Origin: Triglochin maritima
Lineage: Eukaryota; Streptophyta; Magnoliopsida; Alismatales; Juncaginaceae
Assembly (NCBI GenBank): GCA_963682175.1
Contig: OY821789.1
Span: 34,326,150-34,390,149 of the forward strand
DNA length: 64,000 bases
Direction: 5' to 3'
Shown here: positions 45,519 through 61,700 of the stretch, piece after piece
Layout: each line of letters opens with the position of its first letter
Numbering within the stretch: the stretch's first letter is position 1
Translations under genes and position numbers: made by a program
Notes under the pieces: model-generated
The model's input: only the letters and a program-made list of their open reading frames with translations
Database searches by the model: none
Told to the model about the DNA's origin: nothing

Positions 45519-45647
45519 TTTTTAGGGTTTAGGGTTTAGGGTTTTTTTAGGGTTTAGGGTTTAATTTTTTTAGGGTTTTAGGGTTTAGGGTTTAGGGTTT
45601 TTTTTAGGGTTTAGGGTTTAATTTTTTTAGGGTTTTAGGGTTTAGGG
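45519..45647 (+). repeat. Interstitial telomeric repeat tract 1, T-rich variant
   Basis: TTTAGGG units alternate with units in which the T run is expanded to seven or eight. A module of about 60 bp, with TTTAATTTTTTTAGGG in it, occurs twice. The left junction with satellite is abrupt, after GTCGAGAGTGGT. The right junction is a T8 run leading into a LINE-like block. Orientation is the same as in the terminal telomere. Confidence 0.9.
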
Positions 45648-47428
45648 TTTTTTTTGGGGCCCGAAAGTTTATAGAGGCCAGGTTTACGTCTGCCTGCATT
45701 TCATGAATAAGTAGTACATGCTATGATCCTAGAGGCCACAGGCGGCCCGAATACAAGTATGCCAAGGCCAAAAGGCCTTTAGAGTATGCTAATGGGCCTA
45801 AGCCCAATGAAAGAAAAGCTATGGACAACATGGCCTTTTTTTATCTATTAGAAAGGGAAAATTCGATCGGCCGAAAATAATATCGGTCGACCGAAACTGC
45901 TGAATCAAAAGGAGGTTTGATGAAAACCTTACCCCACTTCATCCTATGTTTGACAAGCTGTCTACTCGTGTTCGTCCACCCGTCGACTGCTTCAAGAACG
46001 TAGAAGACCCACTTCGTATTCTAGATGCTCCAAGGTACGCTCGACGATAGGTCTTCATCCAAAGTCGCCCACAAAGCTGAGAAATGAGTAGACAACAAAC
46101 CAAACACATGTACCTCCCTCCATCTGAAGTATGAGTTTGGTTTCTGAACGTACCACTCCAGTTGATCCAAGAAGTGATGCCAAGATGAAAAATGGGGAGA
46201 TTTTGTGTCTTTCAAGTCCTCGCCACCTATACTGTCCATTTAGAAGTCAAACATGACTCCATTTTCTTCAAGAGCTTTCGCCGGCGTGAGGCACCTTTCC
46301 AAAGAGCGGCTACTAACTGGAGATACTCATGAAGCCAAGATTCTTCACCATTTAAGCAAAGGGGACAAGCCTCAAAATAACCAATCTCCACTGTGAATTG
46401 CACCCGACAAATGTTCATGATGGGTTCGACCAAAGATGACAGAGGACTTCGCGCATTCCAGACATTCCCCCTCAGTTTCTACTTAGAAGTCACCAACATT
46501 TTGCTCAATCCACATTCACCATCCGTAGGCTTGAGATGGAGGTCAACCGATCAAATTTCCGTGCTAGCGATCCTCCGTGATCTCCCATCTTGATGTCGGC
46601 TAATGTGGAGGAGCCCGGGCTGGATTCTTCACCATAGAAACTGCTGGTTCGGTGTGAATTGCATGAAGGAACCCCGAATTTGCCACAATTGACCGAAATT
46701 GCCACAGTTGACCCGAAATTGGGCTGCCGTTGACCGAAAGTCAACCCAAAATCCAAGGTTGCAATCAGCCAATTGGTTGATGTTGATGTGGAATTGAGGG
46801 GCCAACAACCTTGCTGTGATGCTGTGGGAATGGATTAGGGTGGGATTGGAGCCCGAAATGCGGAGGTTCGCGCCGGCGAACCCAAAGTCGCGCGGAGGTG
46901 ATGTTGGAGTTCAAGCATGATTCCGGCGATGCAATGGAGCCCAATGTCGCTTGGAAAAGGATGCCCTAGCCATGATGCACGTGTAGGATGCCCGGATTTA
47001 ATTTTGGGGTGCGTTTTGGCCGGGATTGCAAAATCGCGATTCGCCGGAACCCGGAAAATCGCAAATCCAATCCGCGGATTCTTTGGTGTTGGGGCTGAAT
47101 TGATGGGTCCCCAAGCTTGCTGCAGTGATGTGGGAGTGGAATGGGGTGGAAGTGCGGCTTGAGATGCGGAGTTGTGCGCCCAAATTCCAGAAATCGCGCG
47201 GATGCGACTGTGAAGGTTTGAAGCTTCAAGCTTGAATCCGGCGAATGGCTGCGACCTTGAGTGGTCTGGGAGGATGGAGGGTGATGTCCTTGCCTTGATC
47301 CACGAGTATGACGCCCTAAGTTCCTCGTGTGGTGGAGATCTTGGCCGGAAATTGAGAGGCGAATTTTGGGCGAAAATATCGCCAAAATCGCGAGAGCAAA
47401 AAAATTTGTTCGTGGAATGGGCTGGGCT
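45648..47428 (-). mobile_element. LINE-like element 1, internally deleted, embedded in telomeric repeats
   Basis: About 1.78 kb. Read on the minus strand it begins AAGCCCAGCCCATT at 47428, where telomere repeat abuts, and ends in GGGCCCC followed by an A8 run (T8 on the plus strand, 45648-45655) joined to TTTAGGG repeat. It is far more GC-rich than the satellite. Minus-strand frames of 60-140 codons (for example 47385-46966 and 46433-46227) do not resemble the LINE ORF1 next door or any reverse transcriptase I can recognise, and stops interrupt them. Sharing its 5' end with element 2 and ending in oligo(A) suggest a non-autonomous relative of that LINE. The family link rests on the 5' terminal motif and layout only. 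Confidence 0.6.
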
Positions 47429-47908
47429 TAGGGTTTAGGGTTTAGGGTTTAAGGTTAGGGTTTAGGGTTTAGGGTTTTTTAGGGTTTATGGTTTAGGGTT
47501 TAGGGTTTAGGGTTTATTTAGGGTTTATGGTTTCTTTAGGGTTTAGGGTTAGGGTTTAGGGTTTATTTTAGGATTTAGGGTTTAGGGTTTTTTAGGGTTT
47601 TTAGGGGGTTTTATGGTTTTTTTAGGGTTTAGGGTTTAGGGTTTTTAGTGGTTTTTTAGGGTTTAGGGTTTATGGTTTAGGGTTAGGGTTTAGGGTTTAG
47701 TTAAGGGTTTAGGGTTTAGGGTTTAGGGTTTTTTTAGGGTTTAGGGTTTAGGGTTTTAGGGTCTTAGGGTTTAGGGTTTAGGGTTTTAGGGTTTTAGGGT
47801 TTATGGTTTAGGGTTTTAGGGTTTAGGGTTTTTTTAGGGTTTAGGGTTTAGGGTTTAGGGTTTTTTTTAGGGTTTACGGTTTAGGGTTTTAGGGTTTAGG
47901 GTTTAGAG
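47429..47908 (+). repeat. Interstitial telomeric repeat tract 2, highly degenerate
   Basis: About 480 bp of TTTAGGG with many variants: TTTTAGGG, TTTTTTTAGGG, TTTATGG, TTTACGG and TTAGGG. It lies between LINE-like elements 1 and 2 in the orientation of the terminal telomere. It is much more degenerate than the terminal array, which fits an older, internalised end. Confidence 0.93.
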
Positions 47909-50900
47909 TTTTTTTTTTAACAACCAACCTTCTATTTCTTGGCAAAAGAAATTACAAGTATGTAGCCTATTTGTGTGTGGGTCATAGAAGCCCAACACAC
48001 CTTACATCATATGTGTCTAAGGTATTTTGTAAAGTGAATCTGTGCTAATGGGCTCGCAGGCCCAATTACTGGTCCTAAATCAATTTTTACCCATGTTTCT
48101 CTGAAAATGGCGTAGTGGGCTGAAAAAAGTTCAGCAGGAGATAGGCCCACAACGTTCGGCCATCAAGACTGGACTTGCATGACTAATTGCTCGGGCACTG
48201 TTCATGCAGACTGGTTCTTGCACCTGTGCAGCAAATTCTAGCATAGTGAATTATTTACACTACTTGCTTAATTTACCTTAGATCTCCAAAATCAATCAGA
48301 ATGAACCCTTGCGCATATGGAGTCTTTGGGATCTTCTTGGTTCAATTTGCACATGTAGTGGAGTTTTCAGCATTTCTTTCAAGGAAATTTCAGGTTCATA
48401 CTCACTTTCTTCTTGATTTCCTTTTGCATTATCAACATATGAGTCTTCACTTTCAAAGTCTTCTTCATCTTTTTCTTCTTGCTGCAAATCAGATTGAGTA
48501 GTGTCTGATTTCTCCATTTCCTTGTCAATTTCGGAATCTCCTTTTCCATCAGCTGCATCCATTTTTTTCCAAAAAATATGTTGTTTTCGTGCTTCTACAA
48601 TGGCTTCCTTTTTTTTTCATGTTACTTTCTTTCATGAGACGTGTGACTTCTTCTTCCAAATTTACTTCTTCCCTCCTTCCTTGGATTTTAACCATTTGTG
48701 TGGTGGAGTAGGTGACATCATCTTCTTCACTTGAGTTGAGTCTAATGATTCTTGTTCCTCCTTTTTTCCTTCTTTTACTCTTTGTGTTTGTTCTCCCACT
48801 CTTGCTTCTCCTGATCTTGTGTGCATCATGATATTGTTGCTCAATTAATTCTTCTTTATTTGGTGTGTGTTCCTTGTCCTCCGATGTTTCTCCCCTTTCA
48901 ACTTGAGTATTAAACGCACACATGGGATGATACTCCAATGCTTGTGCAGATAAAGATGCAGCACTTCTCTTTTCTTCTAGTGGTTGGGCAAGTTGTGGTT
49001 GTGATGATGAGAGCACACTCATTGCTTCTGATGCTAATTCTGAAATTCTGTTTTCCTCAATGGACAACACAGAATTTCTGTTTGCTGCATGTGAAGTTTG
49101 CTGAATTTCCTCACCTTGTTTCTGAATTTGCTGTCCCATGTGTTCAAGTGTGGGATTAATTAGTGGCGAGACTTGTGGTGTATCTGCTGGTTTTTGTCTT
49201 GCTATATTTGACACTTGATTTCCCAATTCAGCCCCATCTTGTGACCTTGCATCTGCATTTACTTGTGCAAGTACTGGTATAAACTTAGGCCTCCATTCTT
49301 GCCGTGTGATTGTTGGTGCTGTTATTGTAGTTTTCTGGTGTAGAGATGTGGCAGGTGCTGCATCTTGAGTTTTGCTTTTCTCATTTTCTTCCACTCGAAT
49401 TCTGCATTTTGCTTCCATGTGTCCAATTTTCATGCAAAAGTTACAAAAAGGTGGCACATTCTCATAGTGAACCGGTTGTATGTAAGTTTGCTCACCATTG
49501 TGGATGGTTATGTGATCAGGCTTTGGCTTTGAAAGGTCCATTTCTACACAAATTTTGCAAACTCCCGGCCTCATGAAATCCATATCATCTCTTGAACTGC
49601 ATATATATTTTCCGAATCCGGTGGCAATAGATTTCAAAGCATCGGGGTGGTGAAGATGTAAGTCCAAAGCAGGAAAATTAATCCAAATTGGTGCCTGTAT
49701 GGGTTCTAATCCCACTTTAAAATATGGAGACCAATTGAACACTCACATTTTTTTCTCCCCAAAGTACCAGTTGTGTAACCAAACTTTCACAAAGCTTTCT
49801 TCATCAAATAATCTGATACTAACATGTCGAGGTGCAAGTGCTCCAACTTCACAAAAATCTTTTTTGCCAAGAGTTTCTTCCAAATGATTTTGGATGTCGA
49901 GAAGTTCTGGTCTAGGACTCGAGAATTTTCCAATCAAGCACCATTCAAAATCATGACCCATGGTTTTGATTTCAGACACTGAGAAAGTAATACTTGGATT
50001 TCCTTCATCATCAAAACTAGCATTTCTGGCTGGAATTCGTGTTACATATTTAGGGGGTCTACATCTGGGACGCACCACACTAGCATATGATTTTTTCTGA
50101 GTATAATGTGTATTAGGACCAAAAAAATTCCTAATTGGTGATTCTGGTGGTCTAGGTTGGTCTTGTGCATTATCAATTGTGGCCATGTGAACAACAAATC
50201 CACTAAATAAAAATGCAGTCACCTTCGTGAGTCACCCGCGAGCCCATTTTCTTCCCCGAATCCACCAAGGTCGTTGCGCAGCTCCGCCGCACAATCAACC
50301 AAATTGAAGCCAAAGGAGTGTCCCACAGGAGCAGCCGACTGTTCTGAAGTGCGGAATTTAGGTGATTTCCCGTCCAGCTCGCGTAATGGGAGAGGGGGCC
50401 GTCGACGTCAAAATCGCCAACTCGACCCACGAATTCGCTCAGTAATCGATCAAATTGAATCCACCGGAGTGTTCCACATAGACCACAGGAGGTTGGAGGA
50501 GGTTTAATTGAAATATGGATGCCTCTAGCGAGCCAAAGAAGGGGCGGTTTCCGGTGCCAGCGTAGATCGACGAACTTGAGTTTCCTTGCAAATTCGAATT
50601 CAATTGACACCACAGGAACTCTCCTTGATAACCACTGAGCGTAGGAAGATGAAGAATCGAAGCACGACACCACTCAGCAAACCGATTCAAATTAGGTCGC
50701 CGGCCGGTGAAATTTCCGAACACTCCGAGAAGATGAACCGAAATCAATGCACCAGAAAGCGTTTGAACACTTCTCTGAATGTTCCCCACACGTTGCTGGA
50801 GGATTTTGGAGCTCCGGCAAGTTAGCAACGTTAATGGAACAGTGACCGTCGGAGTTCAACCGGCCGCAAAGGTAGTCGACTGAGATCTTAAACGAAAGGG

Positions 50901-51089
50901 GAGACTGAGGGGAGTTCGGAACGACCAAGAGCAAGCCCAAGAACCTCTTGGTGTGTCCTAGATCTGAGATGAAAGGTAGTGGGGGGGTGAGAGGTGATGA
51001 CGTGGCGTGGAAAAAAAGGATTAGCAGAATCACACTTTTTCGCCAGAGCGGCTGAGGAGAGAGAAATTTTTTCTCAAATGGGCTGGGCT
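47909..51089 (-). mobile_element. LINE element 2 with ORF1 but no ORF2, embedded in telomeric repeats
   Basis: About 3.18 kb. On the minus strand it starts AAGCCCAGCCCATT near 51089, has a 5' leader of about 900 bp, an ORF1 of the plant L1 type (listed separately), about 380 bp of 3' sequence, then GGTTGGTTGTT and an A10 run (T10 at 47909-47918) fused to TTTAGGG repeat. No endonuclease or reverse-transcriptase sequence follows ORF1, so the element could not move by itself and would need enzymes from an intact relative. Both ends adjoin telomeric repeat. Short frames at 50203-51033 are 5' leader sequence. Confidence 0.85.
48296..50186 (-). pseudogene. LINE ORF1 (DUF4283 plus CCHC zinc knuckle), nearly intact
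   Basis: ATG at 50186 opens a frame with the DUF4283-type region (SYASVVRP near residue 30, then DFEWCLIGKFSSPRPELLDI). A TGA at 49745-49743 interrupts it, where Arg (CGA) is the likely original. The frame then continues without shift through FNWSPYFKVG, PIWINFPALDLHLHH, and a zinc knuckle CNFCMKIGHMEAKC (C-x2-C-x4-H-x4-C). A long charged tail follows. At 48549 the frame ends after a run of seven A; a one-base slip there would extend the frame through an acidic segment to 48296. ORF1 proteins of plant L1 elements bind element RNA. Only two lesions are visible, so the insertion is not ancient. Confidence 0.85.
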
Positions 51090-51208
51090 TAGGGTTTAGG
51101 GTTTAGGTTTTTTTTTAGGGTTTAGGGTTTAGGGTTTTTTTTAGGGTTTAGGGTTTAGGTTTTTTTTTTTAGGGTTTAGGGTTTAGGGTTAGGGTTTAGG
51201 GTTTAGGG
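51090..51208 (+). repeat. Interstitial telomeric repeat tract 3
   Basis: About 120 bp of TTTAGGG with three units whose T run is expanded to eight or more. It separates the 5' end of LINE 2 from the T run of LINE fragment 3. Orientation matches the terminal telomere. Confidence 0.92.
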
Positions 51209-51478
51209 TTTTTTTTTGCCCCAAAAAGACCACACTCTTTTATATCATTTTGAAAAAATACAAAAGTTTGCTCATTGTGAGCAGATTTAGTGTAGTCTAA
51301 ATGAAAGCCACAGACGGCTATCCAGACCTTAGAGAAGCGATAAAAAAACCTACGGGGTTATAGGAAAAACCACTTCTCAAGGCGTACAAATATGGAAATA
51401 ATGCGATTTTCTCTACCACCTTATCATAGTGATTTCTCCTTTTCTCCCAAAGTTGTTCGAGCAAGTCATCCAATTGCG
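51209..51478 (-). mobile_element. LINE fragment 3, 5'-truncated, with poly(A) end on telomeric repeat
   Basis: About 270 bp. The plus strand goes from GGGTTTAGGG into a T9 run, then GCCCCAAAAAGACCACAC, so the minus strand ends GTGTGGTCTTTTTGGGGC plus oligo(A), a common ending of plant LINE 3' UTRs. The other end (CATCCAATTGCG) runs straight into TTTAGGG. No coding sequence is visible. It looks like a 5'-truncated copy of a LINE family different from element 2. Confidence 0.65.
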
Positions 51479-51530
51479 TTTAGGGTTTTAGGGTTTAGGG
51501 TTTAGGGTTTTAGGGTTTTAGGGTGTAGGG
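51479..51530 (+). repeat. Interstitial telomeric repeat tract 4
   Basis: About 50 bp of TTTAGGG and TTTTAGGG, ending GGGTGTAGGG, directly fused to satellite sequence TAAAGAGAGGTATTTAG. It closes the telomere/LINE block. Confidence 0.9.
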
Positions 51531-53775
51531 TAAAGAGAGGTATTTAGATTTTATTTTTTCTGGAGAAAATCCAAAGACTATAACTCACGTAATTTGATAA
51601 TAAAGACTTAGTTTTTAAAATTCTCACATTTCTAATTTTTTAGCGCTCTAATGATACAAATGATAATTATAACCTTGAAACGTTAAACATATATGTGTCG
51701 AGAGTGGTATTTAGATTATATTTTTTATGGAGAAAATCAATAGGCTATAGCTCACCTAATTTGATAAAAACACTTAGTTCTTCGAATTCTACCTTTTCAA
51801 TGTTTTTGAGCGCTCTGACGATACCAATGCTTATTATAGCATGGAAATGTTAAACATATGCGTGTGGAGAGAGGTATTTAGATTATATTTTTTCTGGAGA
51901 AAATCCAAAGCCTAAAGCTCACGTAATTTGATAAAATGACTTGTTTAAAAAAATTTCAGTTTTCTAAATTTTTGAGCGCTCCGATGATACAATTGATTAT
52001 TATAACCTGGAAACGTTAAACATATGCGTGTCGAGAGAGGTATTTAGATTTTATTTTTTCTGTAGAAATCCAAAGACTATAGCACACGTAATTTGATAAT
52101 AAACACTTAGTTTTTAAAATTCTCACATTTCTAATTTTTAGCGCTCTAATGATACAAATGATTATTATAACCTTGAAACGTTAAACATATGTGTGTCGTG
52201 AGAGGTATTTAGATTATATTTTTTGTGGAGAAAATCAATAGGCTATAGCTCACCTAATTTGATAAAAACACTTAGTTCTTCGAATTCTACCTTTTCAATG
52301 TTTTTGAGCGCTCTGACGATACCAATGCTTATTATAGCATGGAAATGTTAAACATATGCGTGTGGAGAGAGGTTTTTAGATTATATTTTTTCTGGAGAAA
52401 ATCCAAAGCCTAAAGCCCACGTAATTTGATAAAAGGACTTATTTAAAAAATTCTCACTTTACTAATTGTTTAAGCGCTCCGATGATACAATTGATTGTTA
52501 TAACACAGAAACATTAAACATATGTGTGTCGAGAGAGGTATTTAGATTATATTTTTCTGAATAAAAGCTGAAGACTATAGGTCATATTATTTTATAAAAC
52601 CCCCTAGTTTTTTAAATTCTAACTTTTCTAATTTTTTGAGCACTATGATGATACCAATTATTAATATAACATGGAAATGTTAAACTGATGTGTGTCAAGA
52701 GAGGTATTTAGATTATATTTTTCTGGAGAAAATCCAAAGACTATAGCTCACGTAATTTGATAATAAAGACTTAGTTTTTAAAATTCTCACATTTCTAAAT
52801 TTTTAGCGCTCTAATGATACCAATGATTATTATAACATGCCAACGTTAAACATATGCGTGTCGGGAGAGGTATAGGTATTATATTTTTTCTGGAGAAAAT
52901 CCAAAGGCTATAGCTCACGTAAATTGATAAAAATCCTTAGTTTTTAAAATTCTAACTTTTCTAATTTGTTGAGCGCTCTTATGATACCAATGATTATTAT
53001 AACTTGGAAACGTTAAACATATGCGTGTGGGGAGAGGTATTAGATTATATTTTTTCTGGAGAAATCCAAAGTCTATAGCTCACGTAATTTGATGAAATGA
53101 CTTATTTAAAAAATTGTCACTTTTCTAATTTCTTGAGCGCTCCGATAATACAATTGAGTGCTATAACGCGGAAACGTTAAACATATGCCTGTCGAGAGAT
53201 GTATTTAGATTATATTTTTCTGAATAAAATCTGAAGACTATTGGTCACATGATTTTATAAAAAAACATATTTTTTAAAATTCTAACTTTTCTAATTTTTT
53301 GAGCGCTCTGATGATACAAATGATTATTATAACCTAGAAATGTTAAACATATGTGTGTCGAGAGAGGTGTTTAGATTATATTTTTCTGGATAAATTCTGA
53401 AGACTATAGGTCACATAATTTTATAAAAATGCCTAGTTTTTTAAATTCTAACTATTCTAATTTTTGGAGCGGTCTGATGATACGAATGATTAATATAACA
53501 TGGAAACGTTAAACATATGCGTGTCGAGAGGGGTATTTAGATATTATTTTTTCTGGAGAAAATCCAAAGACTATAGCTCACGTAATTTTATAATAAAGAC
53601 TTAGTTTTTGAAATTCTCACTTTTCTAATTTTTTGAGAGCTCTAATGATACAAATGATTATTATAACGTGGAAGCCTTAAACATATGCGTGTGGAGATAG
53701 GTATTTAGATTATATTTTTTCAGGAGAAAATCCAAACCCACACGTAATTTGATAAAAAAAACTTAGTTTAAAAAA
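51531..53775. repeat. Distal subtelomeric satellite block (about 13 monomers)
   Basis: Same 166-bp family as the main array, with the same subtypes. The first 178 bp (51531-51708) differ from the last 178 bp of the main array (45341-45518) at about four positions by my count. The final part copies 28.53-29.43 kb. It ends at AACTTAGTTTAAAAA where the MULE begins. Confidence 0.95.
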
Positions 53776-55734
53776 GGGAACTACTATTCGTCGCCGAAAA
53801 ACTACTTAAATCGCCCCAAAAATGACCTTTTTGACCCTAACAAATCAATTAATACCGATTTCGTCCCGTGTCTTTAAACAAGGTGTTTGACTCAGTTTTA
53901 CTCACATTCCCAGTACAAACACCACGAAAATGTCCGGCGAAGCACCAGAATCCGGCGAGGTAACGGGGGCGGAATTTTTTTTCCGACTCGGGCGTCTGGC
54001 TAGGCCGCCTCCACATAGGTGGAGGCGTCTGTCTAACACGCCCGTTTTTTTTTTAATTTTTTGTTAAATTCAAAATTTTCAGGTTCCGTTGCAAGATTTC
54101 GGTGGTGATGGAGTAGATTACAGTGAGCTTTTTGACAGTAAAGAAATATTTACAACAATCGAGGAAGGTTGTAAATGGGCGAAACAAATTGCGATAGGAG
54201 CCGGATTTTTTTTGGTTATATCATCGTACAAACCAAAAGCAGATAACCGGATGGATTGTTACCTCAGATGCGATCGCAGACGTGAGATGAGTTCTCGTGA
54301 TACGAGTATTGCACTGCGAAAGAATACGAAAAGAAAAGGTTGCGGTTGTCGGTTTTTGGTAAAAGTGGTGGAGCGACGAGATCGTGATGGATGGGTTATT
54401 GTTTCTAGTAGCATGTTTGGGCAGCACAACCACCCATTGGCAGTTTATTCAGAGGGTCACCGACAGGTCAGCGGACTTAGTGCTGGGGCAAAGCAAATTG
54501 TTCGGGATATGACAGAGGCACAAGCAAGGCCCCGTAACATTTTGTTGGCGGTAAAGAAGAAATTTCCGGACGATAATCCTAATCAAAGGCACATTTACAA
54601 CTTCAGAGAGTACATGAGGAGGACGAAATCTGAAGACAGGAATCCCACGCAGCAGTTTCTCAGAGAGGCAGTGCAGCATAAGTATTTGCATTGGATTGTG
54701 GCAGATGAAGAAACTAATGTCTTGACTCATGCATTTTTGGCACATCCGACTTCAGTTCAGTTGTTGCGTACATACCCATTCGTGATCTGTATGGATTCGA
54801 CGTATAAGACGAACAAGTACAAGATGCCTTTGTTTGAGATGGTTGGGGTTACTCCAACAAATATGAATTTCCTCGTCGGATATGCGATTTTGCAGGATGA
54901 GACCGAGTCTAGTTACCGGTGGGTGTTGGAGAGGTTGCGAGATCTGTTATTGGATATTGTTAGCCCGACAGCAATAATTACGGACCGGGAGATGGGTCTG
55001 ATGCGACCAGTGGCAGAGGTTTTTCCTGAGTCAGCTCATTTACTATGCACCTCGCATATCAACAAAGACGTGTACAACTACGCATACCACGTATTCGGCA
55101 GGAGAAGCAGCTTGCAGAGAGTTTTAGACGTGGAAGATGGAGGAGAGTCATGCTTTCTGATTCACAGACGGATTATGATAGAGCAGTCCGTAATCTGAAG
55201 GATTCTTACAGTTCCTGGCCAGTGCTGACGAAGTATGTGGAAGACACGTGGTTGGTGCATAAGGAAAAATTCGTGTTGAATTGGACGAATCAAGTTCTTC
55301 ATTTCGGCAACACTACGAACTGCAGGGTGGAAAGTGCACATTCGGCTCTGAAAGAGTGGATCACTACATCGACTGCCGTTCTCGACACTCTTTTCGACCG
55401 CGTGAACTCGTCTATTGAAATGCAGCTGACAAATATTCGGAACTTTCTTGAAGATTCGAGACGTCGAAATTTGGCACATTACATAGGTCCTCTGTTTCAG
55501 CATATAAATGGCCGAGTTTCGCATCACTGCTTGTCGTTAATGACTCAGGAGTTGAAGAGAATGCAGGACTTAAGTGATGAAATTGAATATCGTTGTGGGT
55601 GTGCTTTCCTGACAACACATGGGATTCCTTGTGCCTGTACCATGTACGAGTGTTTCGCGTCAGGTGATGGAATTTATTTAGAGCAGATTCATCCATTCTG
55701 GAAAACACTTGTTATCGGAGAAGGAGTCCAGATG
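53776..55734 (+). mobile_element. Mutator-like (MULE) transposon, right part lost to the telomere
   Basis: The element seems to begin at GGGAACTACTATTCGTCGCC (53776), a plausible terminal end sequence placed directly after satellite. A GC-rich leader contains the transposase start. The element continues to 55734, where the sequence switches without spacer to TTAGGG and the terminal telomere. The C-terminal transposase coding part and the right terminal inverted repeat are missing, so neither the inverted repeat nor the usual 9-bp target duplication can be verified. Confidence 0.8.
53930..55734 (+). pseudogene. MULE transposase, frameshifted and truncated by telomere addition
   Basis: Exon 1 is 53930-53959 (MSGEAPESGE), followed by a GT-AG intron and exon 2 from 54083, which continues VPLQDFGGDG. 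The N-terminal MuDR/FAR1-type zinc-binding region shows KGCGCRFLVKV and SSMFGQHNHPL. The MULE transposase domain follows, with the first catalytic Asp in FVICMDSTYKTNKY and the second in AIITDREMGLMRP, then HLLCTSHINKDV. Near 55085-55105 the frame slips by one base; the other frame continues RQEKQLAESFRRGRWRRV, HFGNTTNCRVESAHSALKEW and a SWIM-like CGCAFLTTHGIPCACT. Coding sequence stops at KTLVIGEGVQM where telomere repeat starts. A functional enzyme is not expected. Confidence 0.85.
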
Positions 55735-58700
55735 TTAGGGTTTAGGGTTTAGGGTTTAGGGTTTAGGGTTTAGGGTTTAGGGTTTAGGGTTTAGGGTTTA
55801 GGGTTTAGGGTTTAGGGTTTAGGGTTTAGGGTTTAGGGTTTAGGGTTTAGGGTTTAGGGTTTAGGGTTTAGGGTTTAGGGTTTAGGTTTTTTTTTAGGGT
55901 TTAGGGTTTAGGGTTTAGGGTTTAGGGTTTAGGGTTTAGGGTTTAGGGTTTAGGGTTTAGGGTTTAGGGTTTAGGGTTTAGGGTTTAGGGTTTAGGGTTT
56001 AGGGTTTAGGGTTTAGGGTTTAGGGTTTAGGGTTTAGGGTTTAGGGTTTTTTTTTAGGGTTTAGGGTTTAGGGTTTAGGGTTTAGGGTTTAGGGTTTAGG
56101 GTTTAGGGTTTAGGGTTTAGGGTTTAGGGTTTTTTTTAGGGTTTAGGGTTTAGGGTTTAGGGTTTAGGGTTTAGGGTTTAGGGTTTAGGGTTTAGGGTTT
56201 AGGGTTTAGGGTTTAGGGTTTAGGGTTTAGGGTTTAGGGTTTAGGGTTTAGGGTTTAGGGTTTAGGGTTTAGGGTTTAGGGTTTAGGGTTTAGGGTTTAG
56301 GGTTTAGGGTTTAGGGTTTAGGGTTTTAGGGTTTAGGGTTTTAGGGTTTAGGGTTTTAGGGTTTAGGGTTTTAGGGTTTAGGGTTTTAGGGTTTAGGGTT
56401 TAGGGTTTAGGGTTTAGGGTTTAGGGTTTAGGGTTTAGGGTTTAGGGTTTAGGGTTTAGGGTTTAGGGTTTAGGGTTTAGGGTTTAGGGTTTAGGGTTTA
56501 GGGTTTAGGGTTTAGGGTTTAGGGTTTAGGGTTTAGGGTTTAGGGTTTAGGGTTTAGGGTTTAGGGTTTAGGGTTTAGGGTTTAGGGTTTAGGGTTTAGG
56601 GTTTAGGGTTTAGGGTTTAGGGTTTAGGGTTTAGGGTTTAGGGTTTAGGGTTTAGGGTTTAGGGTTTAGGGTTTAGGGTTTAGGGTTTAGGGTTTAGGGT
56701 TTAGGGTTTTTAGGGTTTAGGGTTTTAGGGTTTAGGGTTTAGGGTTTAGGGTTTAGGGTTTAGGGTTTAGGGTTTAGGGTTTAGGGTTTAGGGTTTAGGG
56801 TTTAGGGTTTAGGGTTTAGGGTTTAGGGTTTAGGGTTTTTTTAGGGTTTAGGGTTTAGGGTTTAGGGTTTAGGGTTTAGGGTTTAGGGTTTAGGGTTTAG
56901 GGTTTAGGGTTTAGGGTTTAGGGTTTAGGGTTTAGGGTTTAGGGTTTAGGGTTTAGGGTTTAGGGTTTAGGGTTTAGGGTTTTAGGGTTTAGGGTTTTAG
57001 GGTTTAGGGTTTTAGGGTTTAGGGTTTTAGGGTTTAGGGTTTTAGGGTTTAGGGTTTTAGGGTTTAGGGTTTTAGGGTTTAGGGTTTTAGGGTTTAGGGT
57101 TTAGGGTTTAGGGTTTAGGGTTTAGGGTTTAGGGTTTAGGGTTTAGGGTTTAGGGTTTAGGGTTTAGGGTTTAGGGTTTAGGGTTTAGGGTTTAGGGTTT
57201 AGGGTTTAGGGTTTAGGGTTTAGGGTTTAGGGTTTAGGGTTTAGGGTTTAGGGTTTTTTAGGGTTTAGGGTTTAGGGTTTAGGGTTTAGGGTTTAGGGTT
57301 TAGGGTTTAGGGTTTAGGGTTTAGGGTTTAGGGTTTAGGGTTTTTAGGGTTTTAGGGTTTAGGGTTTAGGGTTTAGGGTTTAGGGTTTAGGGTTTAGGGT
57401 TTAGGGTTTAGGGTTTAGGGTTTAGGGTTTAGGGTTTAGGGTTTAGGGTTTAGGGTTTAGGGTTTAGGGTTTAGGGTTTAGGGTTTAGGGTTTAGGGTTT
57501 AGGGTTTAGGGTTTAGGGTTTAGGGTTTAGGGTTTAGGGTTTAGGGTTTAGGGTTTAGGGTTTAGGGTTTAGGGTTTAGGGTTTAGGGTTTAGGGTTTAG
57601 GGGGTTTAGGGTTTAGGGTTTAGGGTTTAGGGTTTAGGGTTTAGGGTTTAGGGTTTAGGGTTTAGGGTTTAGGGTTTAGGGTTTAGGGTTTAGGGTTTAG
57701 GGTTTAGGGTTTAGGGTTTAGGGTTTAGGGTTTAGGGTTTAGGGTTTAGGGTTTAGGGTTTAGGGTTTAGGGTTTAGGGTTTAGGGTTTAGGGTTTAGGG
57801 TTTAGGGTTTAGGGTTTAGGGTTTAGGGTTTAGGGTTTAGGGTTTAGGGTTTAGGGTTTAGGGTTTAGGGTTTAGGGTTTAGGGTTTAGGGTTTAGGGTT
57901 TAGGGTTTAGGGTTTAGGGTTTAGGGTTTAGGGTTTAGGGTTTAGGGTTTAGGGTTTAGGGTTTAGGGTTTAGGGTTTAGGGTTTAGGGTTTAGGGTTTA
58001 GGGTTTAGGGTTTAGGGTTTAGGGTTTAGGGTTTAGGGTTTAGGGTTTAGGGTTTAGGGTTTAGGGTTTAGGGTTTAGGGTTTAGGGTTTAGGGTTTAGG
58101 GTTTAGGGTTTAGGGTTTAGGGTTTAGGGTTTAGGGTTTAGGGTTTAGGGTTTAGGGTTTAGGGTTTAGGGTTTAGGGTTTAGGGTTTAGGGTTTAGGGT
58201 TTAGGGTTTAGGGTTTAGGGTTTAGGGTTTAGGGTTTAGGGTTTAGGGTTTAGGGTTTAGGGTTTAGGGTTTAGGGTTTAGGGTTTAGGGTTTAGGGTTT
58301 AGGGTTTAGGGTTTAGGGTTTAGGGTTTAGGGTTTAGGGTTTAGGGTTTAGGGTTTAGGGTTTAGGGTTTAGGGTTTAGGGTTTAGGGTTTAGGGTTTAG
58401 GGTTTAGGGTTTAGGGTTTAGGGTTTAGGGTTTAGGGTTTAGGGTTTAGGGTTTAGGGTTTAGGGTTTAGGGTTTAGGGTTTAGGGTTTAGGGTTTAGGG
58501 TTTAGGGTTTAGGGTTTAGGGTTTAGGGTTTAGGGTTTAGGGTTTAGGGTTTAGGGTTTAGGGTTTAGGGTTTAGGGTTTAGGGTTTAGGGTTTAGGGTT
58601 TAGGGTTTAGGGTTTAGGGTTTAGGGTTTAGGGTTTAGGGTTTAGGGTTTAGGGTTTAGGGTTTAGGGTTTAGGGTTTAGGGTTTAGGGTTTAGGGTTTA

Positions 58701-61700
58701 GGGTTTAGGGTTTAGGGTTTAGGGTTTAGGGTTTAGGGTTTAGGGTTTAGGGTTTAGGGTTTAGGGTTTAGGGTTTAGGGTTTAGGGTTTAGGGTTTAGG
58801 GTTTAGGGTTTAGGGTTTAGGGTTTAGGGTTTAGGGTTTAGGGTTTAGGGTTTAGGGTTTAGGGTTTAGGGTTTAGGGTTTAGGGTTTAGGGTTTAGGGT
58901 TTAGGGTTTAGGGTTTAGGGTTTAGGGTTTAGGGTTTAGGGTTTAGGGTTTAGGGTTTAGGGTTTAGGGTTTAGGGTTTAGGGTTTAGGGTTTAGGGTTT
59001 AGGGTTTAGGGTTTAGGGTTTAGGGTTTAGGGTTTAGGGTTTAGGGTTTAGGGTTTAGGGTTTAGGGTTTAGGGTTTAGGGTTTAGGGTTTAGGGTTTAG
59101 GGTTTAGGGTTTAGGGTTTAGGGTTTAGGGTTTAGGGTTTAGGGTTTAGGGTTTAGGGTTTAGGGTTTAGGGTTTAGGGTTTAGGGTTTAGGGTTTAGGG
59201 TTTAGGGTTTAGGGTTTAGGGTTTAGGGTTTAGGGTTTAGGGTTTAGGGTTTAGGGTTTAGGGTTTAGGGTTTAGGGTTTAGGGTTTAGGGTTTAGGGTT
59301 TAGGGTTTAGGGTTTAGGGTTTAGGGTTTAGGGTTTAGGGTTTAGGGTTTAGGGTTTAGGGTTTAGGGTTTAGGGTTTAGGGTTTAGGGTTTAGGGTTTA
59401 GGGTTTAGGGTTTAGGGTTTAGGGTTTAGGGTTTAGGGTTTAGGGTTTAGGGTTTAGGGTTTAGGGTTTAGGGTTTAGGGTTTAGGGTTTAGGGTTTAGG
59501 GTTTAGGGTTTAGGGTTTAGGGTTTAGGGTTTAGGGTTTAGGGTTTAGGGTTTAGGGTTTAGGGTTTAGGGTTTAGGGTTTAGGGTTTAGGGTTTAGGGT
59601 TTAGGGTTTAGGGTTTAGGGTTTAGGGTTTAGGGTTTAGGGTTTAGGGTTTAGGGTTTAGGGTTTAGGGTTTAGGGTTTAGGGTTTAGGGTTTAGGGTTT
59701 AGGGTTTAGGGTTTAGGGTTTAGGGTTTAGGGTTTAGGGTTTAGGGTTTAGGGTTTAGGGTTTAGGGTTTAGGGTTTAGGGTTTAGGGTTTAGGGTTTAG
59801 GGTTTAGGGTTTAGGGTTTAGGGTTTAGGGTTTAGGGTTTAGGGTTTAGGGTTTAGGGTTTAGGGTTTAGGGTTTAGGGTTTAGGGTTTAGGGTTTAGGG
59901 TTTAGGGTTTAGGGTTTAGGGTTTAGGGTTTAGGGTTTAGGGTTTAGGGTTTAGGGTTTAGGGTTTAGGGTTTAGGGTTTAGGGTTTAGGGTTTAGGGTT
60001 TAGGGTTTAGGGTTTAGGGTTTAGGGTTTAGGGTTTAGGGTTTAGGGTTTAGGGTTTAGGGTTTAGGGTTTAGGGTTTAGGGTTTAGGGTTTAGGGTTTA
60101 GGGTTTAGGGTTTAGGGTTTAGGGTTTAGGGTTTAGGGTTTAGGGTTTAGGGTTTAGGGTTTAGGGTTTAGGGTTTAGGGTTTAGGGTTTAGGGTTTAGG
60201 GTTTAGGGTTTAGGGTTTAGGGTTTAGGGTTTAGGGTTTAGGGTTTAGGGTTTAGGGTTTAGGGTTTAGGGTTTAGGGTTTAGGGTTTAGGGTTTAGGGT
60301 TTAGGGTTTAGGGTTTAGGGTTTAGGGTTTAGGGTTTAGGGTTTAGGGTTTAGGGTTTAGGGTTTAGGGTTTAGGGTTTAGGGTTTAGGGTTTAGGGTTT
60401 AGGGTTTAGGGTTTAGGGTTTAGGGTTTAGGGTTTAGGGTTTAGGGTTTAGGGTTTAGGGTTTAGGGTTTAGGGTTTAGGGTTTAGGGTTTAGGGTTTAG
60501 GGTTTAGGGTTTAGGGTTTAGGGTTTAGGGTTTAGGGTTTAGGGTTTAGGGTTTAGGGTTTAGGGTTTAGGGTTTAGGGTTTAGGGTTTAGGGTTTAGGG
60601 TTTAGGGTTTAGGGTTTAGGGTTTAGGGTTTAGGGTTTAGGGTTTAGGGTTTAGGGTTTAGGGTTTAGGGTTTAGGGTTTAGGGTTTAGGGTTTAGGGTT
60701 TAGGGTTTAGGGTTTAGGGTTTAGGGTTTAGGGTTTAGGGTTTAGGGTTTAGGGTTTAGGGTTTAGGGTTTAGGGTTTAGGGTTTAGGGTTTAGGGTTTA
60801 GGGTTTAGGGTTTAGGGTTTAGGGTTTAGGGTTTAGGGTTTAGGGTTTAGGGTTTAGGGTTTAGGGTTTAGGGTTTAGGGTTTAGGGTTTAGGGTTTAGG
60901 GTTTAGGGTTTAGGGTTTAGGGTTTAGGGTTTAGGGTTTAGGGTTTAGGGTTTAGGGTTTAGGGTTTAGGGTTTAGGGTTTAGGGTTTAGGGTTTAGGGT
61001 TTAGGGTTTAGGGTTTAGGGTTTAGGGTTTAGGGTTTAGGGTTTAGGGTTTAGGGTTTAGGGTTTAGGGTTTAGGGTTTAGGGTTTAGGGTTTAGGGTTT
61101 AGGGTTTAGGGTTTAGGGTTTAGGGTTTAGGGTTTAGGGTTTAGGGTTTAGGGTTTAGGGTTTAGGGTTTAGGGTTTAGGGTTTAGGGTTTAGGGTTTAG
61201 GGTTTAGGGTTTAGGGTTTAGGGTTTAGGGTTTAGGGTTTAGGGTTTAGGGTTTAGGGTTTAGGGTTTAGGGTTTAGGGTTTAGGGTTTAGGGTTTAGGG
61301 TTTAGGGTTTAGGGTTTAGGGTTTAGGGTTTAGGGTTTAGGGTTTAGGGTTTAGGGTTTAGGGTTTAGGGTTTAGGGTTTAGGGTTTAGGGTTTAGGGTT
61401 TAGGGTTTAGGGTTTAGGGTTTAGGGTTTAGGGTTTAGGGTTTAGGGTTTAGGGTTTAGGGTTTAGGGTTTAGGGTTTAGGGTTTAGGGTTTAGGGTTTA
61501 GGGTTTAGGGTTTAGGGTTTAGGGTTTAGGGTTTAGGGTTTAGGGTTTAGGGTTTAGGGTTTAGGGTTTAGGGTTTAGGGTTTAGGGTTTAGGGTTTAGG
61601 GTTTAGGGTTTAGGGTTTAGGGTTTAGGGTTTAGGGTTTAGGGTTTAGGGTTTAGGGTTTAGGGTTTAGGGTTTAGGGTTTAGGGTTTAGGGTTTAGGGT

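Follow-up and report, generated by a model that had tools for sequence, protein, structure and literature searches.

LINE-like elements in fixed orientation within telomere repeats of the flowering plant Triglochin maritima

The telomeric elements HeT-A, TART and TAHRE of Drosophila form tandem stacks of a single polarity, in which HeT-A, a gag-only element, stands beside the RT-encoding TART. Plant L1-type LINEs combine a DUF4283/CCHC ORF1 with an ORF2 in which endonuclease, reverse transcriptase, zf-RVT and RNase H follow in that order. TRAS and SART work by insertion into telomere repeats; TRAS1 of the silkworm inserts within the repeat, which its endonuclease nicks at the T-A junction (PMC7265360). 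The fungal MoTeR and FoTeR elements are LINEs stacked at chromosome ends, and their target duplications are undecidable because telomere repeat lies at both ends of the element (PMC12857005, excerpt). For the green lineage, the portion of a 2023 paper available here names only Zepp of Chlorella (PMC10088271). A 2025 review of plant transposons describes telomere-associated elements as rare in plants, gives the Penelope-like elements of Selaginella and the subtelomeric Retand of Silene as examples, and states that no Drosophila-like telomeric retrotransposon has been found in this group (PMC12477314). We found no telomere LINE of a flowering plant in the literature searched, which covered few subscription papers and preprints and leaves absence unproven.

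The sequence described here is the right end of C21, a 34.4-Mb contig of the 1.06-Gb assembly of Triglochin maritima, analysed as a single stretch of 64,000 nucleotides (the window). The set of telomere elements in this genome includes a LINE with an intact ORF2, an ORF1-only family and a 2-kb element that is non-coding. Represented in the window are the ORF1-only family (E2) and the non-coding element (E1), together with a LINE 3′ fragment (E3). These elements resemble TRAS1 and SART1 of Bombyx mori, as the latter are described in the accessible text, in their position inside telomere repeats, fixed orientation, poly(A) tail and APE-type endonuclease (PMC7265360), and their polarity, as in TRAS, is consistent with a G-strand primer. 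They differ in having an ORF1 with sub-threshold DUF4283/CCHC matches and an RNase H in ORF2, whereas TRAS and SART are of R1 type (PMC10088271, in part), and in their plant host, TTTAGGG repeat, and ORF1-only and non-coding companions. The Drosophila elements are matched in the stacking and single polarity and in the pairing of a gag-only family (here that of E2, with preserved ORF1) with an RT-encoding one (here represented by R4, an element described below); in contrast to Drosophila, TTTAGGG repeats and a TERT domain match are present, telomerase repeats have not been replaced, the endonuclease is retained and internal copies have target duplications. The likeness to Zepp, a LINE-like element at green-lineage telomeres, is by description alone, from the available part of the source (PMC10088271). 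A comparison by text with MoTeR and FoTeR shows LINEs that are stacked at chromosome ends and bounded by telomere repeat on either side, where duplications are undecidable for the same reason as here, but FoTeR was analysed with a REL domain and the Triglochin set has an APE-type endonuclease (PMC12857005).

Elements and telomere tracts in the window

The window holds a block in which the three elements alternate with tracts of telomere repeat (Table 1). All three lie antisense to the TTTAGGG strand within the stretch given in the earlier note, with plus-strand T-runs directly following telomere units: in E1, T8 (45648-45655) follows AGGG; in E2, T10 (47909-47918) follows TTTAGAG, a variant unit; and in E3, T9 (51209-51217) follows AGGG. 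The description of all three as LINE-like applies to E2, an ORF1-only LINE, and to E3, whose identity to the 3′ ends of other LINEs is 69-71% across 111-172 bp, but E1 is a non-coding poly(A) element. The view that E1 is a LINE stripped of its ORFs was rejected, because the LINE ORF1 and ORF2 sequences used as queries revealed no coding similarity in it. LINE ORF queries found ORF1 pieces and no ORF2 in E2, and comparison of this ORF1 with Pfam gave sub-threshold matches to DUF4283 (26.7 bits, curated cut-off 27.2) and zf-CCHC_4 (17.6, curated cut-off 27).

Table 1. Elements and telomere-repeat tracts in the window
Feature	Position	Strand	Description
Telomere-repeat tract A	45520..45647	+	TTTAGGG units, some of them T7-T8 variants; centromere-proximal to E1
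E1, non-coding poly(A) retroelement	45648..47429 (body 45656-47429)	-	complete 5′ end, sense AAGCCCAGCCCATT
Telomere-repeat tract B	47430..47908	+	TTTATGG variants numerous
E2, ORF1-only LINE	47909..51090 (body 47919-51090)	-	complete 5′ end, sense AAGCCCAGCCCATT
E2 ORF1, C-terminal piece	48296..48562	-	different frame
E2 ORF1, main piece	48549..49742	-	DUF4283 and zinc-knuckle matches, sub-threshold
E2 ORF1, first piece	49743..50222	-	N-terminal part and start of the DUF4283 match
Telomere-repeat tract C	51091..51208	+	T8-T11 variants, AGG units
E3, 5′-truncated LINE 3′ fragment	51209..51478 (body 51218-51478)	-	similarity to LINE 3′ ends
Telomere-repeat tract D	51479..51531	+	outer edge of block; satellite resumes beyond
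Terminal telomere of today, TTTAGGG	55735..64000	+	contig end = window end

E1 and E2 share the terminus GGGCTGGGCTT before AGGG, and the box GCTCTGGCGA, exact or one base off, occurs in the first ~90 bases of E1, E2, R2, R3, R4 and Lf3. At the 5′ ends of E1 and E2 (47420-47440 and 51080-51095) the element and the adjoining telomere together read, in sense, CCCTAAGCCCAGCCCATT, which we take to be a telo-box beside site II-like TGGGCT motifs. This adjacency suggests that the telomere target could contribute part of the promoter for E1 and E2.

A satellite with a 166-bp unit and a 333-bp double unit flanks the block on both sides (11399-45522 and 51534-53736). The block is therefore an old telomere stack that is internal today, the present telomere starting at 55735. 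At 53780-55735 the terminal telomere truncates a MULE transposase gene (PF10551), and the start of this telomere, ATG|TTAGGG, resembles a broken end healed by telomerase; 152 bp of the terminal telomere precede its first T-run. TTTAGGG arrays at chromosome ends measure 8-11 kb, and C6 carries a match to the TERT RNA-binding domain in an open frame. A second match to this domain, at C5:52387571-52387951, has one in-frame stop.

T-runs without any element are also present inside telomere tracts, as the earlier note had rightly cautioned, yet the T-runs at element junctions extend up to T31. Five scanned terminal arrays contained 46 runs of T7 or longer, mostly T7, which in four of the five lay no more than 1.9 kb from the inner edge; these four are the arrays of the window (55887-56836), the right end of C1 and the left ends of C4 and C21, and the fifth had no such run within its outer 10 kb. 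A reading of these T-runs as tail-only scars is weak, given that most are T7 and confined near the inner edges of arrays.

Families, polarity and junctions across the assembly

Both ends of C1 show an arrangement like that of the window, including R4 and Lf3. R4 is an 8.4-kb copy with an unbroken ORF2 frame of 1384 aa that comprises Exo_endo_phos (an APE-type endonuclease), RVT_1, zf-RVT and RVT_3 (RNase H); its ORF1 contains stops and is similar to that of E2. Lf3 is 8.8 kb long with broken frames. The R4 ORF2 has 24-35% identity to the 20 public proteins listed. It shares its domain order with plant L1-type LINEs, its best named relative among the matches listed being from Paulownia, and the set resembles these LINEs further in its poly(A) tails (T-runs to 31) and in the target duplications of internal E1 copies described below; it is set apart from them by its telomeric location and fixed polarity. 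Copies on C13 and at the right end of C28 have an E2-like build of ~3.2 kb, and the ORF1 of the C13 copy is intact at 633 aa. The dN/dS of this ORF1 is 0.24-0.29 among the C13, C28 and C1-left copies (three overlapping pairs), which indicates that selection has maintained it in the lineage that made them.

The 3′ ends of E1, E2, R4 and the Lf3 type were used as four queries against the assembly, whose 24 chromosome-scale contigs (1055 Mb) have 48 ends. Copies in the expected orientation, one or more per end, were found at at least 35 of the 48. Near chromosome ends (a limit of 60 kb for E1 and 65 kb for the Lf3 type), the expected and opposite orientations were counted at 30:1 for E1 (44 rows, best 40 of 48 candidates scored; 6 further copies internal and 3 on contigs unsized at the time), 24:1 for E2 (44 rows, 34 of 34 copies scored; 7 internal and 2 on contigs then unsized), 24:0 for R4 (best 40 of 88 rows; 15 internal and 1 on a contig then unsized) and 22:4 for the Lf3 type (best 40 of 54 rows; 14 internal). 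Copy numbers are lower bounds, because a subset of candidates was scored in the E1, R4 and Lf3-type searches, and the R4 and Lf3-type counts are not additive, because one internal locus and seven or more loci at ends are common to the two result sets. C26 is a chromosome (33,371,825), on which an E1 copy fits the expected orientation and, after sizing, one further E2 copy is internal; the class assigned in the R4 search is unchanged by this length.

The opposite E1 copy, on C15, still reads AGGG, T8 and element locally, and the opposite E2 copy is one half of a palindrome. At the left end of C17 (L101/L102, ~18.1-19.1 kb) the 3′ end of an E2-family element with its telomere flank occurs twice, inverted, forming a palindrome of the genome or of the assembly. 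At four ends, an Lf3-type copy of opposite orientation is ~2.7 kb away from one in the expected orientation; these account for all four opposite copies, and owing to this equal spacing they look like one inverted block that has spread between ends. The inverted pair of Lf3-type 3′ ends occurs at the right ends of C13, C14 and C19 and the left end of C16, 40-62 kb from the chromosome ends, and looks like a subtelomeric block common to the four. The arrangement seen in the window is genuine and exemplifies a pattern that extends across the genome. Nearly all near-end copies point the expected way, which is more than would be given by chance, one of the cautions attached to the original observation; copying between ends, which relates to the other caution, later duplication, is also seen.

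We tabulated the 52 telomeric 3′ junctions that were retrieved, a sample of the copies from which L103 (with the flank of Lf0), L102 (palindrome of L101) and L094 (tandem duplicate of L077) were excluded before counting. In all 52, G-strand telomere units are followed by T3-T31 and then the element. Tails of T22-T31 occur in copies at the left ends of C5 and C28 and the right ends of C9, C18 and C27. No telomere repeat was found in the 3′ flanks of nine non-telomeric copies (6 E1, 1 E2 and 2 R4). The last unit before the T-run is AGG at 7 of the 52 junctions versus 2 of 153 among the preceding three units (p 0.001), and AGG makes up 37 of 1717 units in telomere tracts at large. Where read, the telomere spacing between stacked elements ranges from about 20 to 660 bp. 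Short spacing was considered as proof of end attachment and set aside for want of a sound null model. At L146 (right end of C4) an R4-type LINE follows a LINE stub of <100 bp, the two being separated by roughly three telomere units, the last of which ends in AGAG.

Target duplications of 12-16 bp are present at four of the six non-telomeric E1 copies; a duplication was looked for at the remaining two and none was found. A full-length internal E1 copy with a duplication reads GGGC, TT and then the duplication, from which it follows that the TT before AGGG at telomeres is the element's own; this copy also predicts AAGCCC as the 5′ end of E1 RNA. At telomeric copies the check for target duplications suggested in the earlier note gave a different outcome: flank pairs of 22 copies matched over at least 12 bp in 11 cases versus 11.2 (sd 1.2) when shuffled, and variants in the last unit of the left flank recurred on the right in 0 of 7 copies, which speaks against variant-containing duplications. 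Exact TTTAGGG units are enriched on the left flank at positions -1 and -2 (79/106 versus 189/356 at -3 to -9, p 8e-5; counts reconstructed from rounded fractions, in a sample without L107, L120, L121 and L126, which lacked the anchor, and with L143-L147 added). On the right flank they are enriched at +1 to +3 (56/69 versus 69/116 at +4 to +9, p 0.003), an effect that is gone when AGGG only is scored (59/69 versus 95/116, p 0.68). Both footprint tests were devised post hoc on data already seen.

Insertion into the repeats or attachment at the end

We narrowly prefer TRAS-like insertion to priming at the chromosome end, and put at about an even chance the reading that telomere-specialised L1-type LINEs and their non-autonomous companions have inserted into telomere repeats in the manner of TRAS. 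We infer a nick by the element endonuclease at TTT|AGGG in telomere repeat that is double-stranded and, over a short distance, clean; the TTT end so released would prime on the poly(A) tail, and gap closure would leave a short duplication made of clean repeats. The RNA would be copied poly(A)-first, starting at a 3′ end of the G-rich strand, and the copies would for this reason lie antisense to TTTAGGG. ORF2 from autonomous copies would serve the non-autonomous elements, and repeated rounds, together with telomerase acting outside and exchange with satellite arrays, would build stacks at many ends; the window block is an old stack of this kind, internal today.

L1-type endonucleases have the nick consensus TTTT|A, to which TTT|A is a near match found on the G strand only. 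A nick there gives the same polarity as attachment at an end; orientation is thus not diagnostic and was rejected as proof of tip attachment. From the earlier account of priming by the G-strand end, copying of the poly(A) tail from a G-strand 3′ end and a near-absolute polarity are supported, and the exposed tip as the primer is its less favoured part. Telomere repeat on both sides, which in the form of target-site duplications the earlier note counted against tip attachment, is expected under insertion and attachment alike.

Insertion is favoured by the polarity counts, the uniform reading of the 52 junctions, the endonuclease of R4, the duplications of internal E1 copies, the clean repeats at junction flanks and the precedent of TRAS and SART. 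An endonuclease that chose clean repeats, followed by a two-unit duplication, would place clean units at the junction and mask the duplication. Against insertion stand the flank matches equal to shuffled pairs, the failure of all seven left-flank variants to recur, the loss of the right-hand footprint under AGGG scoring, and the seven AGG ends, which are unexpected after a TTT nick unless the end was trimmed.

The strongest alternative, which we consider a serious contender of lower probability, is the route proposed in the earlier note: priming on the poly(A) tail by the free 3′ overhang of a telomere, perhaps a short or damaged one, after which the cDNA would form the new end and be recapped by telomerase. 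This route is like that of HeT-A, yet with telomerase present. The lack of any sign of duplication at telomeric copies, in both the shuffled comparison and the variants, fits this route, as do the AGG-ended primers and the presence of different families separated by just ~20 bp of telomere (L146 on C4 right; L068 on C16 right). Mammalian L1 RNPs favour 3′ overhang primers and prime at dysfunctional telomeres (PMC3649969, PMC4700185). Of the possible primer ends, however, mammalian L1 uses a terminal G least well (PMC3649969). The elements have moreover retained an endonuclease, and the non-telomeric E1 copies with duplications have ordinary ones. Clean units are also restricted to the junction, whereas beyond a fresh telomerase cap the right flank should stay clean for longer, as in the 152 bp that begin at 55735. 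Evidence in both directions is thin, and we lean to insertion at even probability with end attachment at roughly one chance in three. A fuller version is possible but doubtful, in which a flowering plant with telomerase would also extend or repair its chromosomes by copying LINEs directly onto open ends of the G strand, the ORF1-only family corresponding to HeT-A and its RT-bearing partner to TART, with some T-runs of the inner tracts being tail-only scars.

It is improbable that no special mechanism operates and that a few insertions were spread among ends by exchange, tandem duplication and inversion. Such copying is visible in the three copies at 3.46 kb spacing on C20 left, the 3.37 kb unit on C28 right, the C17 left palindrome and the inverted pair at four ends, but the 52 junctions, counted after removal of the duplicates L103 and L102, comprise four kinds of 3′ end with varied truncation points, tails of 3 to 31 and varied flanks. 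Least probable of all, by a little, is that these are ordinary L1 elements which insert without preference and persist at chromosome ends alone: internal copies exist (at least 6/40 for E1, 7/34 for E2, 15/40 rows for R4 and 14/40 rows for the Lf3 type), but 30 of the best 40 E1 copies lie no more than 60 kb from ends, where a random spread would place very few, and the 3′ flanks read for near-end E1 copies are telomere repeat.

Bearing on plant telomeres

One-way habitation of telomere repeats by LINEs is known in insects, fungi and algae; for plants it has been described as unseen. With several LINE families at 35 or more of 48 ends, telomere targeting in a plant becomes directly testable, and so does a sharing of tasks between elements with ORF1 only and those that carry ORF2. 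The system is also relevant to the construction of subtelomeres and inner telomere tracts.
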